The translations under genes were made by a program, and so were the position numbers. The notes beneath the pieces were generated by a model. It had not been told where the DNA came from and made no database searches. It worked only from the letters and a program-made list of their open reading frames with translations. From Arsukibacterium tuosuense (GTDB lineage Bacteria > Pseudomonadota > Gammaproteobacteria > Steroidobacterales > GCA-2729495), in NCBI GenBank assembly GCA_945872065.1, contig CAMBYH010000014.1, positions 1 to 38,273 on the forward strand: a DNA stretch of 38,273 bases. The letters run 5' to 3'. Shown one piece after another: positions 2,548-8,986 of this stretch. Numbering within the stretch: position 1 is the first letter of the stretch; each line of letters begins with the position of its first letter.

Positions 2548-2846
2548 TCCGCCGGCTTGGCGAAGTCAGTTACAAGATTGCCCGCCGCATCGTCATCGCG
2601 GTCATCGGTGGCACCATTCTGCTGGGTGGAATCATCATGCTGGCCACGCCGGGCCCCGGCCTGGCGGTCATTCTGCTGGGCCTTGCCATTCTCGCCATCG
2701 AGTTCGCCTGGGCAAAGCTCTGCCTGGCCAAGGTCAGGCACAGCGTCACACCGGAGGGCCGTGAGGCCCTGCGCGGCCACTACGTAAGCCTGCGGGAGCG
2801 CTGGGTCGGCAAGAAGACAGACGGGAAGCCCGCGGAAAAACCCTAG
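2544..2846 (+). CDS. PGPGW-type small membrane protein
   Basis: This small membrane protein (100 residues from GTG 2544) carries the ATPGPGLAVILLGLAILAIEFAWAK type of segment that defines the PGPGW family, with two hydrophobic helices and a basic C-terminus. The GTG overlaps the previous stop as GTGA, with AAGGAC about 12 bases upstream, so translation is probably coupled. An ATG further upstream at 2502 is possible but would overlap the lipoprotein by 46 bases. The family has no assigned function. Its stop codon overlaps the stop of the convergent thioredoxin gene. Confidence 0.75.
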   Translation: MIRRLGEVSYKIARRIVIAVIGGTILLGGIIMLATPGPGLAVILLGLAILAIEFAWAKLCLAKVRHSVTPEGREALRGHYVSLRERWVGKKTDGKPAEKP

Positions 2847-3595
2847 TGCAGCAGGTGTCCCAGCCGGCGCCGGTAGTCATGAACTACGGGATCCGTGCTG
2901 CCGAGCCACTCAAACAGGCGTAACAGTGCCAGGCGTCCGGCATCGTCCCGATAGGCGCGACTCCGCGTGGTCAGGGTCAGGAAGGCTTCGGCGGCCCTGC
3001 CGTGGGCGCCGGCCCCCGCCGCCTTCAGTCCCTCGCGATACAGCGCATCGAGATCAGCGGTTCCCGCGCTGATCTCCCTGAGTTCCTCTGCGAAATATAC
3101 CTGCACGCGCAGGCCACGCACTCGCTCGGTTTCCTGGCGATCCGCCGGCAGCTCATCAAGGAGCCTGCGGGTCGTGGCCGGATCCCTAGCTCGCAAAGCC
3201 TCTTCCGCCAGGTCTTCTCCCGACTTCTCCGTCGGTGCGGCGGCGGGCGCTGCCTCGTCGGGCGCCAGGAACGGCGCCACCCACTCCTGGATGGCGTGGG
3301 CCGGCTGCAGACCCACAAACTGGCTGGCGAGCTTGCCGTCCCTGAAGAGCATGACAGTGGGGATGCTGCGAATCTGGAACTGGCGCGCCAGCTGCTGCTC
3401 GGCATCGGTATCGACCTTGAGTACCTTCGCGCGCCCGGCGAGGGACTCCGCCACGGTCTCAAGAATCGGCCCGAGCGTCTTGCAGGGTCCGCACCAGGTC
3501 GCCCAGAAATCCACAATCACGGGCAGGTGGTGGGAAGCCTCAAGCACGTCCTTCTCGAAAGTGGCGAGACCGGTAGCTTGAACGGTGTTCGACAT
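2843..3595 (-). CDS. cnoX: thioredoxin/TPR protein of the YbbN/CnoX type
   Basis: This is a 250-residue protein with an N-terminal thioredoxin fold (residues 1-110) and an alpha-helical TPR-like C-terminal half, the layout of YbbN/CnoX chaperedoxins that protect proteins and hand them to GroEL. The active site is a canonical WCGPC (Cys35, Cys38), so it should be redox-active, unlike E. coli YbbN, which has a changed motif. The cis-Pro region SIPTVMLFRDGK is intact. The start is ATG 3595, with GGAG about ten bases upstream. The frame stays open to 3892, but that extension runs through a terminator and promoter and is not coding. Its own promoter must lie in the 80 bases after the upstream terminator unless readthrough occurs. 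Confidence 0.85.
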   Translation of the reverse strand: MSNTVQATGLATFEKDVLEASHHLPVIVDFWATWCGPCKTLGPILETVAESLAGRAKVLKVDTDAEQQLARQFQIRSIPTVMLFRDGKLASQFVGLQPAHAIQEWVAPFLAPDEAAPAAAPTEKSGEDLAEEALRARDPATTRRLLDELPADRQETERVRGLRVQVYFAEELREISAGTADLDALYREGLKAAGAGAHGRAAEAFLTLTTRSRAYRDDAGRLALLRLFEWLGSTDPVVHDYRRRLGHLLH

Positions 3596-3677
3596 GGGCT
3601 GGTACTCCGCTGCAGCAGGCCACAAGGCTGCCTGAAGTATCGCTGTGGTTGCGCGGGTCCGCGCTTTCAAGCGCCAG

Positions 3678-3727
3678 AAAAAAAAGGAGCCCGCAGGCTG
3701 ACGCAGATAGCGCCAGCCAGGGGCTCC
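3678..3727 (-). terminator. intrinsic terminator with nested hairpin
   Basis: Reading on the minus strand, GGAGCCC (3727-3721) pairs with GGGCTCC (3692-3686). Inside, CTGGC-side bases 3718-3714 pair with 3700-3696, and GCG 3712-3710 pairs with CGC 3704-3702. Eight T follow immediately (3685-3678). This is a textbook Rho-independent terminator for minus-strand transcription. It lies about 80 bases before the thioredoxin start, so it ends the upstream transcript rather than that gene. Confidence 0.85.
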
Positions 3728-3840
3728 AAGGGCAGGACTTCGAGGGGGGTCAAAGTCGTGCCGCGTTTCAAGGCTTTCCGGGGGGACGGACCTGCCGGCG
3801 GCCACTTGGAGGGCCGTGGACGCCAGCAAAGCACTTGATG
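3678..3840 (-). ncRNA. putative sigma-54-dependent small RNA
   Basis: Seen directly: a -24/-12 element at 3866-3851 predicts a transcript start near 3840. No gene begins in the next 160 bases, and a strong intrinsic terminator ends in eight U at 3685-3678. The predicted RNA is about 160 nt. It contains a hairpin at 3816-3799 (CGGCC/GGCCG) whose loop side carries CCUCC, a second at 3757-3736 (GACTT/AAGTC) with a run of six C in the loop, and the terminator hairpin. Such C-rich loops resemble anti-Shine-Dalgarno seeds of trans-acting sRNAs. That it is a stable regulator is inference; the alternative is an attenuated leader of the thioredoxin gene. I do not recognise a known RNA family. Confidence 0.6.
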
Positions 3841-3850
3841 GAAGACTCGT

Positions 3851-3866
3851 TGCAGGAGTCGTGCCA
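3851..3866 (-). promoter_or_regulatory. sigma-54 (-24/-12) promoter
   Basis: On the minus strand the sequence is TGGCAC, five bases (GACTC), then CTGCA. This matches the TGGCAC-N5-TTGCA consensus at all but one position, with the invariant GG and GC correctly spaced. The C of -12 is base 3852, giving a start near 3840. Upstream are an IHF consensus and two palindromes, and the divergent gene encodes a sigma-54 activator, which strengthens the call. Confidence 0.75.
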
Positions 3867-3882
3867 AAGTTGGCGTCTATAA

Positions 3883-3895
3883 AATCAATCACTTA
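3883..3895. promoter_or_regulatory. IHF binding site
   Basis: AATCAATCACTTA fits the IHF consensus WATCAANNNNTTR at every defined position. It lies about 43-55 bases upstream of the predicted sigma-54 transcript start, between the promoter and the palindromes, where IHF normally bends DNA to bring the activator to the polymerase. Confidence 0.55.
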
Positions 3896-3903
3896 GCGGC
3901 TCG

Positions 3904-3958
3904 GTAAGCACGAGAAACCGTGACTTACGAAAAAGCGTTTTCCAGAGGCGCGGAAAAC
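3904..3958. promoter_or_regulatory. two palindromic candidate enhancer sites (UAS)
   Basis: Site 1: GTAAG-CACG (3904-3912) faces CGTG-A-CTTAC (3919-3928), an inverted repeat with one bulged base. Site 2: GTTTTCC (3937-3943) and GGAAAAC (3952-3958) form a perfect 7-bp inverted repeat with an 8-bp spacer. Both contain GAAA(A)CCGTG in the same orientation, about 40 bp apart, close to four helical turns. They sit about 65-118 bases upstream of the predicted start, the usual range for activator enhancers. Site 2 abuts the GTG start of the activator, so autoregulation is possible. Confidence 0.5.
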
Positions 3959-3959
3959 C

Positions 3960-5780
3960 GTGTACCTTCCCGGAGTGGCCACCCTGGATTCCTATCTCGC
4001 GCTGTTCCACCGGATCCCGGTCATGGCAGCTCTGCTGGACCGGGAAGGCTGTTTCATCGAGGTCAGCGACAACTGGGTGAGCAGGACCGGCTTTACAGCG
4101 GAAGCGCTGCGGGGTCGCCGACCCGAGGACGTCGCCACGGCAGACAGCGCCAGACGGATCCGGGAGGAGCACCGCCCCTGCTTCCGCCGCACCGGTCGGC
4201 TCGACAACGTCCCGGTGGAGTTCCACACGGCCGACGGTACGACGCTGGAACTGTTGGTCACGAGTACCGCCGAGTACGACGCCTCGGGACTCTTCCTGCA
4301 TTCCCTGTCGGTATTCACTGAGTTGTCCGACCGGGCCCGCCTGGAGCGCCGCTACCGGGATCTTTACCAGGCCACCCCGGCGATGCTGCACACCGTCGAC
4401 CCGGAGGGCAGGCTGACCGATGTCAGTGACCACTGGCTCGACAAACTGGGTTACACCCGCGACGAGGTTCTCGGCCGCTCAATTCTGGACTTCATGACTG
4501 ATGCCTCCCGCGCGCCCCTGGTGGGGCGTGTGCGGGAGATCATCAACGCCGGCGACATCCGGAACGTGCCGCGCCAGATGGTGACCCGGAGCGGGGAGGT
4601 GCGCGAGGTCCTGCTGTCGTCCCACACGGAGAGGGATGCCCGGCAGGCCGTGGTTCGCACCCTGGTAGCCAGCAAGGATGTGACGGAACGCAACCGGGCG
4701 GAAGCTCGCCTGAAGGAGGCGTACGGCGAGATCGCGCGGCTCAAGGAGGAACTCGAGCGGGAGCGGGACTACCTGCGGGAAGAGGTCCGGGTGTCCATGA
4801 ACTTCGGCCGGATCGTGGGGGGCAGCCCGGCACTGCTGGCTATGCTGGCCCGGATCGAGGCGGTCGCCGACACGCCAGCCAGTGTCCTGATCCTGGGTGA
4901 AACTGGCACGGGCAAGGAGCTGGTAGCCCACGCTATCCATACGCGGAGCAGCCGTTCCAATGCGCCCCTGGTGAAGGTCAACTGTGCGTCGATTTCCGAC
5001 GAGCTGTTTGAGAGCGAATTCTTTGGACACGTGCGGGGCGCCTTTACGGGCGCACACCGGGATCGGGTCGGGCGCTTCCAGCTGGCTGATGGCGGGACCA
5101 TTTTCCTGGACGAGGTGGGCGAGATCCCGCTGGCACTGCAGGGCAAACTGCTGCGGGTACTCCAGGAGAAGGAGTTCGAGCGGGTCGGCGATGAATTGAC
5201 GCGGATGGTGGATGTGCGGGTGATCGCGGCCAGCAACAAGGACCTGGAGAGAGCTGTTGAGGCTGGCGAGTTCCGGGAGGACCTCTATTACCGCCTGAGC
5301 GTCTTCCCCGTGCAGGTGCCTCCGCTCCGGCGGCGCGGCGATGACGTCGTCCAGCTCGCGGTGCACTTTCTCCAGCAGGTTTGCCGGGAATTCGGCCGAT
5401 CCTGCCCAACCATTACCCAGGCCCAGGCGGACGCCCTGCGGCGTTATCCCTGGCCGGGCAATGTCCGTGAACTCAAGAACGTGATCGAGCGGGCGCTCAT
5501 TCTCTCGACCGGGGACAACCTGCGCCTCGACCTGTCCCTGCCTGAGGCGCAGGTCGGGGTCAGTGTTGCCCCTGCAGCTGCTCCGCCTGCAGGAGCGACG
5601 GGGGAGACCCACCCGTTTCTGACGGAGATCCAGATGCGGGACCAGCAGCGCAACAACCTCCTCGCTGCCCTGGAGGCTGCCGGGTGGCGGGTGGCGGGCA
5701 AGGGCGGCGCTGCCGATCTGCTGGGCATTCGGCCCTCCACACTGGCGGACCGCATCAGGAGCTTTCAGATCCAACGCTGA
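3960..5780 (+). CDS. sigma-54-dependent transcriptional activator (PAS-PAS-AAA+-Fis)
   Basis: This is a 606-residue enhancer-binding protein. Two PAS-like sensory domains occupy about residues 10-115 and 128-240, then a charged coiled coil (243-275). The AAA+ domain has Walker A GETGTGKE (313-320), the sigma-54-contacting GAFTGA loop (360-365), Walker B FLDE (382-385) and the SNKD sensor. A proline/alanine linker leads to a Fis-type helix-turn-helix (about 560-604). There is no receiver domain, so it probably senses a ligand or redox signal through PAS rather than phosphorylation. The GTG start has AGAGG about 11 bases upstream; ATG 4023 is an alternative that would clip PAS1. It is divergent from a sigma-54 promoter, its likely target. 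Confidence 0.92.
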   Translation: MYLPGVATLDSYLALFHRIPVMAALLDREGCFIEVSDNWVSRTGFTAEALRGRRPEDVATADSARRIREEHRPCFRRTGRLDNVPVEFHTADGTTLELLVTSTAEYDASGLFLHSLSVFTELSDRARLERRYRDLYQATPAMLHTVDPEGRLTDVSDHWLDKLGYTRDEVLGRSILDFMTDASRAPLVGRVREIINAGDIRNVPRQMVTRSGEVREVLLSSHTERDARQAVVRTLVASKDVTERNRAEARLKEAYGEIARLKEELERERDYLREEVRVSMNFGRIVGGSPALLAMLARIEAVADTPASVLILGETGTGKELVAHAIHTRSSRSNAPLVKVNCASISDELFESEFFGHVRGAFTGAHRDRVGRFQLADGGTIFLDEVGEIPLALQGKLLRVLQEKEFERVGDELTRMVDVRVIAASNKDLERAVEAGEFREDLYYRLSVFPVQVPPLRRRGDDVVQLAVHFLQQVCREFGRSCPTITQAQADALRRYPWPGNVRELKNVIERALILSTGDNLRLDLSLPEAQVGVSVAPAAAPPAGATGETHPFLTEIQMRDQQRNNLLAALEAAGWRVAGKGGAADLLGIRPSTLADRIRSFQIQR

Positions 5781-5860: not shown

Positions 5861-7726
<1,866 letters not shown>

Positions 7727-7759
7727 GGGGCGCCAAGCAGACAGGGGAGGGGATTCAGG

Positions 7760-8986
7760 ATGATCAACAGCGGCGATACCGCGTGGCTGCTTGTCGCCAC
7801 CGCACTGGTTCTCTTCATGACCCTGCCAGGGCTGGCCCTGTTCTATGGCGGGCTGGTCCGCAGCCGCAACGTACTGTCGGTCCTCATGCAGTGTTTCGCC
7901 ATTGCAGCGGTCGTGTCCCTGCTCTGGATGGTGGTGGGCTACAGCCTGGTGTTCACCGACGGGGGCGCCGCCCAGGCCTGGACGGGTGGACTGAGCAAGG
8001 CGTTCCTTGCGGGCATCACGGTGGAGTCCATTACGGGCACGGTCCCGGAGTCCGTGTTCGCGATGTTTCAGCTGACCTTCGCCATCATCACGCCCGCTCT
8101 CATTGTTGGCGCGTTTGCGGAGCGCATGCGGTTTGCGGCGATGCTGCTCTTCTCTACGCTCTGGCTCCTGCTGGTCTACGTGCCGGTGGCCCACTGGGTG
8201 TGGGGCGGCGGCTGGCTTGCCCAGATGAAGTTCCTGGATTTCGCTGGCGGGTCAGTGGTTCACATCAACGCCGGGGTCGCTGCCCTCGTGGCAGCCCTCG
8301 TTATCGGCAAGCGGCGGGGCTTTCCGAGTCAGGCGATGACGCCCCACAACCTGCCCGCAGCCGTGACCGGTGCCGGGATGCTCTGGGTCGGCTGGTTCGG
8401 CTTCAACGCTGGTAGTGCCCTGGCTGCCAATGGCTCTGCCGGCATGGCCATGCTGGTGACCCACGTTGCGGCGGCAGCAGGCTGCGTGGCCTGGATGGCC
8501 CAGGAGTGGCTGCGTTTCGGCAAGCCCAGCGTGCTGGGCATCGTCACGGGTATGGTGGCCGGGCTTGGCACCATTACACCCGCTTCCGGCTTCGTAGGCC
8601 CCGGCGGCGCACTCGCCATTGGGCTCCTCGCAGGCACCGTGTGCTTCTGGGCTACCCAGTTCATCAAGCGGCGTCTCGCCATTGATGACTCCCTGGACGT
8701 TTTCCCCGTCCATGGCGTCGGCGGGATCATGGGCACACTACTGACCGGCGTGTTTGGCGCAGCAGCCCTCGGGGGCATCGGGCACCCGGATGGCCGGACC
8801 ATCGCGGCCCAGCTGGGTGTGCAACTGATCGGCACGGTCGCGACGATCGTCTGGGCGGGGGGCATGACCTGGCTCTTGCTGAAAGTGACCGCCCTGGTCT
8901 GCGATCTGAGGGTGACTGCCGAAGAAGAAAACGAAGGCCTGGACCTCGTGCTCCACGAGGAGCGCGGCTACAACATCACGTCGTAG
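7760..8986 (+). CDS. amtB: ammonium transporter AmtB
   Basis: This is a 408-residue integral membrane channel with about 11 helices that conducts ammonia/ammonium across the inner membrane. The twin pore histidines are His168 (VVHINAG) and His318 (VHGVGG), matching E. coli mature numbering. The N-terminal GDTAWLLVATALVLFM and FYGGLVRSRN segments are typical. There is no cleavable signal peptide before the first helix, unlike E. coli AmtB. The ATG has a strong GGGGAGGGG upstream. It follows glnK by 83 bases containing the REP-like palindrome. Its 3' end overlaps the convergent msrQ by 11 bases. Confidence 0.95.
   Translation: MINSGDTAWLLVATALVLFMTLPGLALFYGGLVRSRNVLSVLMQCFAIAAVVSLLWMVVGYSLVFTDGGAAQAWTGGLSKAFLAGITVESITGTVPESVFAMFQLTFAIITPALIVGAFAERMRFAAMLLFSTLWLLLVYVPVAHWVWGGGWLAQMKFLDFAGGSVVHINAGVAALVAALVIGKRRGFPSQAMTPHNLPAAVTGAGMLWVGWFGFNAGSALAANGSAGMAMLVTHVAAAAGCVAWMAQEWLRFGKPSVLGIVTGMVAGLGTITPASGFVGPGGALAIGLLAGTVCFWATQFIKRRLAIDDSLDVFPVHGVGGIMGTLLTGVFGAAALGGIGHPDGRTIAAQLGVQLIGTVATIVWAGGMTWLLLKVTALVCDLRVTAEEENEGLDLVLHEERGYNITS

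Follow-up and report, generated by a model that had tools for sequence, protein, structure and literature searches.

The described RNAs that most resemble the one analyzed here do so in form or in control. In the accessible parts of the published reports, NfeR1, a member of the ar14 family, has three hairpins that carry one anti-Shine-Dalgarno (anti-SD) motif on very different stems (PMC10746234), and the CcsR RNAs are cotranscribed downstream of a small-protein gene from an RpoHI/RpoHII promoter (PMC10253847). SisA to SisD of Caulobacter (ar8) are described there as sharing an anti-SD 10-mer, with TonB-receptor mRNAs among the targets of SisA (PMC12559287). NrsZ of Pseudomonas aeruginosa is, in the portion of the report available, a sigma-54-dependent small RNA (sRNA) of about 226 nt encoded between ntrC and PA5126, adjacent to the gene of an enhancer-binding protein; it is driven by NtrB/C and activates rhlA (PMC8395346). 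The enterobacterial GlnZ is likewise presented as an RpoN-dependent sRNA derived from an mRNA 3'UTR, being released from the glnA mRNA (PMC9731577).

We analyzed a 38,273-nt stretch of DNA (contig CAMBYH010000014.1), referred to here as the window, in which a compact minus-strand transcription unit lies between a ybbN-like thioredoxin gene (positions 2846 to 3595, minus strand) and a divergently oriented regulator gene. Read 5' to 3' on the minus strand, the unit consists of ACG-N6-CGT palindromes (one degenerate and two good), an IHF-like site, a sigma-54 element, a start at ~3840, three hairpins with C-rich loops (C-loops), and a terminator (Table 1). On sequence grounds, it is likely that this stretch encodes, and that the cell expresses, a small regulatory RNA. 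The explanation that we favor, and that we consider probable, is a dedicated sigma-54-dependent regulatory RNA whose C-rich loops pair with the Shine-Dalgarno (SD) regions of trans-encoded mRNAs. The original prediction of a discrete sRNA with C-rich loops holds in that the RNA has a predicted promoter and terminator of its own and in that its loops are multiple, predicted to be exposed, and conserved on changing stems, a combination also seen in anti-SD sRNAs already described; it was incomplete in that it lacked the sigma-54 promoter and the divergently encoded activator and did not recognize that the transcript derives from one with a small open reading frame (ORF). Its further suggestion, that the loops pair with ribosome binding sites and repress several targets, is still a hypothesis.

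Table 1. Features of the C-loop RNA locus in the window
Feature	Position	Strand	Detail
C-loop sRNA	3678..3840	minus	Predicted, 163 nt; from promoter and terminator positions in the sequence
Predicted +1	about 3840	minus	12 nt past the GC of the -12 element
Sigma-54 -24/-12 element, TGGCACGACTCCTGCA	3851..3866	minus	GG-N10-GC
IHF-like site, TAAGTGATTGATT	3883..3895	minus	0 mismatches to YAANNNNTTGATW
Activator-like site 3, ACGGTTTCTCGT	3910..3921	minus	ACG-N6-CGT
Activator-like site 2, ACGCTTTTTCGT	3927..3938	minus	Spaced 17 nt from site 3, as is most common
Degenerate activator-like site 1, ACGGTTTTCCGC	3950..3961	minus	From sequence; intact counterpart in relatives such as G002
Hairpin 1	3793..3828	minus	10-nt loop 3815-3806 = GGCCCUCCAA, holding CCUCC at 3812-3808
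Hairpin 2	3777..3790	minus	Loop 3786-3781 = UCCCCC; stem UCCG/CGGA
Hairpin 3	3731..3762	minus	Loop 3749-3744 = CCCCCC
Intrinsic terminator	3678..3727	minus	GGAGCCC/GGGCTCC stem, then T8 at 3685-3678; inner part also found by terminator scan
PAS-PAS-AAA+-HTH bacterial enhancer-binding protein	3960..5780	plus	606 aa; true start possibly GTG 3975

The region from 3878 to 3672 folds with a z score of -6.4, and none of 200 shuffles was equally stable. Judged from its sequence, the U8 tail of the terminator is the only Hfq-relevant feature that we saw in the window RNA. A promoter scan detected no sigma-70 promoter between 3400 and 4200. No Rfam family matched the whole window at the gathering score, and a permissive Rfam search of 3640 to 3960 returned two chance-level matches, both on the plus strand. 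In a DNA search of 60 genomes, the sRNA region had matches in 4 others, one of which (in G032) is just 30 nt long; no homologue was detected by DNA search in G004, a seventh relative within the genus whose genome is 70% complete.

In the modeled fold of the window RNA, all three C runs of the original prediction are expected to be unpaired rather than buried, with mean unpaired probabilities of 0.86 for CCUCC, 0.84 for the C6 run at 3785 to 3780, and 1.00 for that in hairpin 3. A fourth C run (3723 to 3720) is buried in the terminator stem, with an unpaired probability of 0.03. Three or more C-loops occur in only 2 of 200 dinucleotide shuffles of the RNA, which is rarer than chance would explain for the three seen here. 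The details of the hairpins required some revision. CCUCC had been assigned to the loop of a CGGCC/GGCCG hairpin; its position is correct, but the hairpin is longer than the one named, and the first C of the motif, which falls inside the stem as originally drawn, is nevertheless left unpaired by the fold of minimum energy. The GACTT/AAGTC hairpin was confirmed (3757 to 3753 with 3740 to 3736), but its stem continues (GACUUUGA/UCGAAGUC), and its loop, which was thought to hold six C plus UCG, is exactly six C, the UCG being paired. The third C run, described as five C, is present as six C and lies inside a small hairpin of its own.

The proposed loops are conserved among close relatives, with 2 or 3 C-loops in each of the 6 same-genus homologues examined. 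We aligned these with the window genome (alignment A3, 7 rows: G000, G001, G002, G003, G005, G006, and G007). The consensus fold has a closed 5' domain (AUCAAG with CUUGA) around the first C-loop hairpin, followed by the CCCCCC hairpin and the terminator. In this structure, which was derived from the same alignment that it was scored on, a procedure that favors structure, 88.4% of cells are paired and 14 of 36 pairs have changed on both sides; neither value was reached by any of 500 shuffles. Another of the five measures, further pair types, was equalled by 17 of 500 shuffles. When the partners were shifted by one to three columns, pairing fell to 33 to 52%. The helix of hairpin 1 has changed on both sides in 7 of 11 pairs while 78.9% of its cells are paired, the inner stem of hairpin 3 has both-side changes in 3 of 8 pairs, and a loop of C5 to C7 is found in hairpin 3 in all 7 rows. 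Hairpin 2 is kept in G007 and G002 and is absent from G003, G005, G001, and G006, so only the first and third C-loops are common to the whole alignment. The G006 row alone proves little because 15 of 200 shuffles match its C-loop count. For the wider, Woeseiaceae-type alignment (A2, 16 rows), the row-picking pattern dropped 14 of 32 candidates, and A2 omits two of the 18 that remained. RNAalifold recovered only two hairpins from it (11 pairs, one changed on both sides), and we therefore claim covariation for A3 alone. We think that the stem of the first C-loop is too diverged for MAFFT in A2.

A sigma-54 element pointing away from the regulator is present in 42 of 42 upstream regions and in 46 of 46 further orthologous loci, 16 of which repeat genomes of the 42; with G001 added, these amount to 73 distinct transcripts. 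The strict form, TGGCAYRN5YGCW, stands at the same place in 73 of the 73, and none of 6 weak PAS-only matches has a sigma-54 element. The loose -24/-12 pattern was found in 33 of 1,460 shuffled 700-nt stretches. The opposite end of the regulator gene served as a further control, and 6 of 30 loci have the pattern there, at scattered places. Genome-wide occurrence of the bare pattern was rejected as evidence, since the window's own genome has 23 matches versus 27 for the reversed control. Because the bare pattern is not enriched and the loose form also occurs in controls, it is the constant place and context of the -24/-12 element that count. The 200-nt regions upstream of the 73 transcripts contain 177 ACG-N6-CGT sites, compared with a shuffle mean of 2.7 (highest, 8); 64 of the 73 regions have two or more and 41 have three, with spacings of mostly 17 and 22 to 23 nt. 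With up to 1 mismatch to YAANNNNTTGATW, which we take to be the IHF consensus, an IHF-like site is found in 53 of 73 upstream regions versus 6.7 in shuffles, mostly 29 to 31 nt before the promoter element. The sigma-54 unit features present are the -24/-12 element, upstream activator-like sites, an IHF-like site, and a linked activator gene. This promoter layout is of the classical enhancer-dependent type, and sigma-54 dependence is predicted.

The regulator has Pfam matches to two PAS stretches, Sigma54_activat, and HTH_8 (a Fis-type HTH). Among the 25 of 35 NCBIfam matches shown, it scores under the cutoff of every equivalog model (NifA, 368.7 of 528.85; NorR, 362.3 of 476; NtrC, 301.2 versus a cutoff of 558.6), which indicates that it is not one of those named activators. 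At an E value of 1e-100, it has matches in 44 of 63 genomes, its own included, and a profile of its PAS part matched 3 of 369 genomes sampled across the class, again including its own and all from the same order. The true-orthologue loci (L057 to L102) come from MAGs titled Gammaproteobacteria, Proteobacteria, Woeseiaceae, and similar. From linkage and coconservation, we infer that the divergent regulator binds the ACG-N6-CGT sites and acts on the promoter, and this PAS-PAS-AAA+ protein probably switches the RNA on by way of sigma-54. A paralogue of the regulator (49% identical; G056 contig C8, L056) is likewise accompanied by a divergent sigma-54 element and by an ORF of 53 aa, but C-loops are absent. 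The window also has, at 7335 to 8986, genes that by eye are glnK and amtB like, 3 to 5 kb from the locus.

The layout is conserved in Woeseiaceae and related Gammaproteobacteria. At least one C-loop is found in 68 of the 73 transcripts and at least two in 45, counts that include C4 runs in C/T-rich stretches, and the motif recurs on varying stems. By the fold test, no C-loop was found in 5 rows (G026, G033, G008, the paralogue G056b, and L082, which has a truncated sequence). In the transcripts, 111 of 166 runs of C5 or longer lie within hairpin loops, compared with 41 of 184 elsewhere in 63 loci, and 98 of 162 have flanking stems of 6 pairs or more, compared with 41 of 186 control runs. In many Woeseiaceae-type rows, the first hairpin contains UCUCUCCCCC and a CGGCA/UGCCG hairpin contains CCCCCC. 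In Woeseiaceae-type L rows (e.g., L096 and L100), two short hairpins between the C-loops often have GGA-type loops (e.g., GGACCAGGAUGGUCC), which could be CsrA/RsmA sites. In L071, L081, L085, L100, and others, the terminator hairpin after the second C-loop holds a long conserved insert (variants of GGAGACCGCUCCGUGUCGGAUCGGCCCGCUG) that is far longer than a terminator requires.

In 59 of the 73 rows, an automatic SD-and-length test detected a small ORF with an SD-like sequence ahead of the last C run; this test misses likely cases, such as G011, with a plausible 105-aa ORF, and L082, which is cut by its contig. The ORFs are 32 to 115 aa long (median, 90), and the C-loops lie downstream, in the 3'UTR. 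The small proteins have a hydrophobic N-terminal segment and diverge strongly between groups, and 8 that were tested gave no Pfam or NCBIfam model above the cutoff. In the small ORFs of G012, G037, G052, G019, and G029, segments similar to EEIVVTAPR are reminiscent of the TonB box of TonB-dependent receptors; the small proteins may derive from such receptors or interfere with them. In the window's genus, the test for an ORF of suitable length, SD sequence, and position was negative for each of the 7 rows. A tree of 60 regulators places these ORF-less rows in a single group (support, 92/97) amid lineages that have the ORF. The ORF label as assigned implies 6 changes over the whole tree, some of which probably reflect errors of the ORF test. 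Most economically, the ORF was lost in the window's genus, and the promoter, C-loops, and terminator were retained as a stand-alone sRNA.

If the C-loops pair with SD regions, target genes would have G-rich starts. The window's own genome has 74 matches to GGGGGG-N3-9-ATG versus 52 for the control, a mild excess. The lead to TonB-dependent receptors came from viewing GGGGGG-ATG matches, of which 30 of the 74 were fetched, and the own-genome TonB count below is for that reason partly selected. Taking as the start the farthest-upstream candidate, we found a run of 5 or more G in the start regions of 19 of 75 TonB-receptor genes versus 0 of 63 ABC-transporter genes, pooled (p = 5e-6). In the window's own genome, the counts are 4 of 8 TonB starts versus 0 of 22 ABC starts, after genes without a usable ATG (5 of 13 TonB and 8 of the 30 ABC genes fetched out of 42) were dropped. 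Seven other genomes have 180 TonB and 270 ABC matches, of which 70 and 50, best scoring first, were used over two samples. The first gave 7 of 27 versus 0 of 25 (p = 0.010; 3 of 30 TonB and 5 of 30 ABC genes dropped). The second, a fresh sample in which some fused exporters were passed over in the ABC set, gave 8 of 40 versus 0 of 16 (p = 0.089, alone not significant; 0 of 40 and 4 of 20 dropped) and, at 4 or more G, 16 of 40 versus 3 of 16 (p = 0.21). If any candidate start is accepted instead, the TonB counts become 11 of 27 and 14 of 40. As a control, 22 plasmid-borne TonB genes of unrelated bacteria with annotated starts were chosen among 60 rows listed of 265 records (17 of the 22 are from sphingomonads); 4 of the 22, all four from sphingomonads, have G-run starts, and the comparison with 19 of 75 gives p = 0.58. 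We therefore rejected the idea that G-run TonB starts are specific to bacteria with this RNA, and the statistic does not show coevolution. TonB receptors with G-run starts could still be targets. Specificity is a real difficulty, because C6 loops offer short seeds.

Several other explanations of the locus were weighed against SD pairing. One loop motif repeated on unrelated stems has the look of a titration RNA, and the C-rich loops might dock an RNA-binding protein for which the RNA is a decoy, by the logic of RsmY/CsrB rather than by base pairing. A GGA of the CsrA/RsmA-like type does lie in a hairpin loop in 21 of 29 named-MAG L rows (fold around the first C run past position 200; a raw count without a shuffle baseline). 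However, none of the predicted loops of the window's own RNA is a GGA loop, and we know of no bacterial protein that reads C-only hairpin loops; we consider the decoy explanation unlikely. The small ORF that precedes the last C run in those 59 rows would also suit hairpins that serve merely as a stability or processing element in the 3'UTR of an mRNA for a small protein, without any trans activity. Such an element requires stems rather than conserved C-only loops, and the window's genus, which has no ORF, nevertheless keeps the promoter, C-loops, and terminator; this makes the 3'UTR explanation quite improbable.

Two explanations center on neighboring or overlapping coding sequence. The RNA is on the same strand as ybbN, with an intrinsic terminator between them in the window, and ybbN is also next in G007, G002, and G006, as would be expected if the RNA were a 5' leader (attenuator or riboswitch) of that gene. 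In G003, G005, and G001, however, a convergent PGPGW gene takes this place and no ybbN follows, and ybbN is found in just 4 of 40 family genomes at an E value of 1e-30, far fewer than have the promoter and C-loops. The leader explanation, now very improbable, was rejected on synteny, and the difference in downstream genes within the genus indicates that the RNA is a unit of its own. The PGPGW membrane-protein gene (PF09656; 2502 to 2846 in the window) is near the RNA also where ybbN is not adjacent. Finally, the window transcript might encode a small protein too, as those of relatives do, and there is a 66-aa frame at 3667 to 3867 on the minus strand. This frame begins upstream of the predicted transcription start, and with the failure of every ORF in the genus rows to pass the test, a coding role in the window is extremely improbable.

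Based on form and on analogy with ar14/ar8, anti-SD pairing is the best reading, and mRNA pairing, repression, and targets would follow from it. It is consistent with what sequence and comparison reveal, namely, the predicted promoter architecture and its conservation, the hairpins, the persistence of C-loops on changing stems, and the absence of the ORF in the genus. In the anti-SD explanation, the PAS-PAS-AAA+ protein would sense a signal and bind the tandem ACG-N6-CGT sites, IHF would bend the promoter DNA, and sigma-54 RNA polymerase would start at ~3840 and stop at the terminator at 3678. The hairpin loops would hold short C-only or C-rich segments open, and these would pair with the G-rich SD regions of mRNAs encoded in trans, whose translation would thereby be blocked. 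A small protein with a hydrophobic N terminus is encoded first in most relatives, with the C-loops as its 3'UTR; in the window's genus, the ORF is absent and the RNA part alone is left.

Marine sediments harbor abundant Woeseia-type Gammaproteobacteria, few of which have been cultured. A broader proposal, which we offer tentatively and regard as rather doubtful, is that these bacteria have an independently evolved anti-SD system in which a PAS-gated sigma-54 switch drives a dual transcript; its small protein, which evolves fast and is probably exported, and its C-loop RNA would jointly remodel the outer membrane through silencing of those TonB-dependent receptors whose starts have G runs, and one genus would have dropped the protein and kept the RNA. 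The locus has a predicted C-loop RNA that is of the same anti-SD type as regulatory RNAs of alphaproteobacteria and that apparently arose separately under a sigma-54 switch. It appears to record how an mRNA for a small protein, with a regulatory 3'UTR, turned into an sRNA that stands alone. Regulator and RNA form a clear pair for testing, and the alignment is ready for use in defining a new RNA family. Our literature search found no paper that describes the locus in its title or the start of its abstract.

As far as the accessible parts of the reports describe them, the ar14/cuckoo RNAs of alphaproteobacteria (NfeR1 and CcsR1 to CcsR4) are like the window RNA in having one anti-SD-type motif in several hairpins with diverged stems, and the relatives' C-loop RNA is, like CcsR, downstream of a small-protein gene in one transcript. 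In contrast to ar14/cuckoo, the motif here is C5 to C8 or UCUCUCCCCC, and CCUCCUCCC occurs anywhere in only 1 of 73 transcripts. The promoter is of the sigma-54 type rather than the RpoHI/RpoHII type described for CcsR, the bacteria belong to a different class, and DUF1127, the small protein of the CcsR/CIN1 locus, had no match in the 8 representative small proteins tested. The anti-SD signature is a likeness to ar8/MmgR (Rfam suhB) and SisA to SisD; in the part of the Caulobacter report available, however, the motif lies unpaired, in a stretch that follows a weak hairpin (PMC12559287), whereas here it is a C-only loop. There is no suhB (RF00519) match in the window; L050 has a weak one (26.5 bits; gathering score, 41), and none is listed in 7 other loci searched. 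The locus shares with NrsZ, as partially reported, (predicted) sigma-54 control and an adjoining enhancer-binding-protein gene, but the neighbor here is not NtrC. With GlnZ it shares predicted RpoN control and 3'UTR origin, while the accessible text does not describe the GlnZ seed as a C-rich loop (PMC9731577). Since CCUCCUCCC is confined to that single transcript, DUF1127 and Rfam matches at the gathering score are lacking in the searches above, and the activator is not NtrC, we place the RNA outside these known families. In form it resembles the ar14/ar8 anti-SD RNAs, and in its predicted control it resembles NrsZ or GlnZ.
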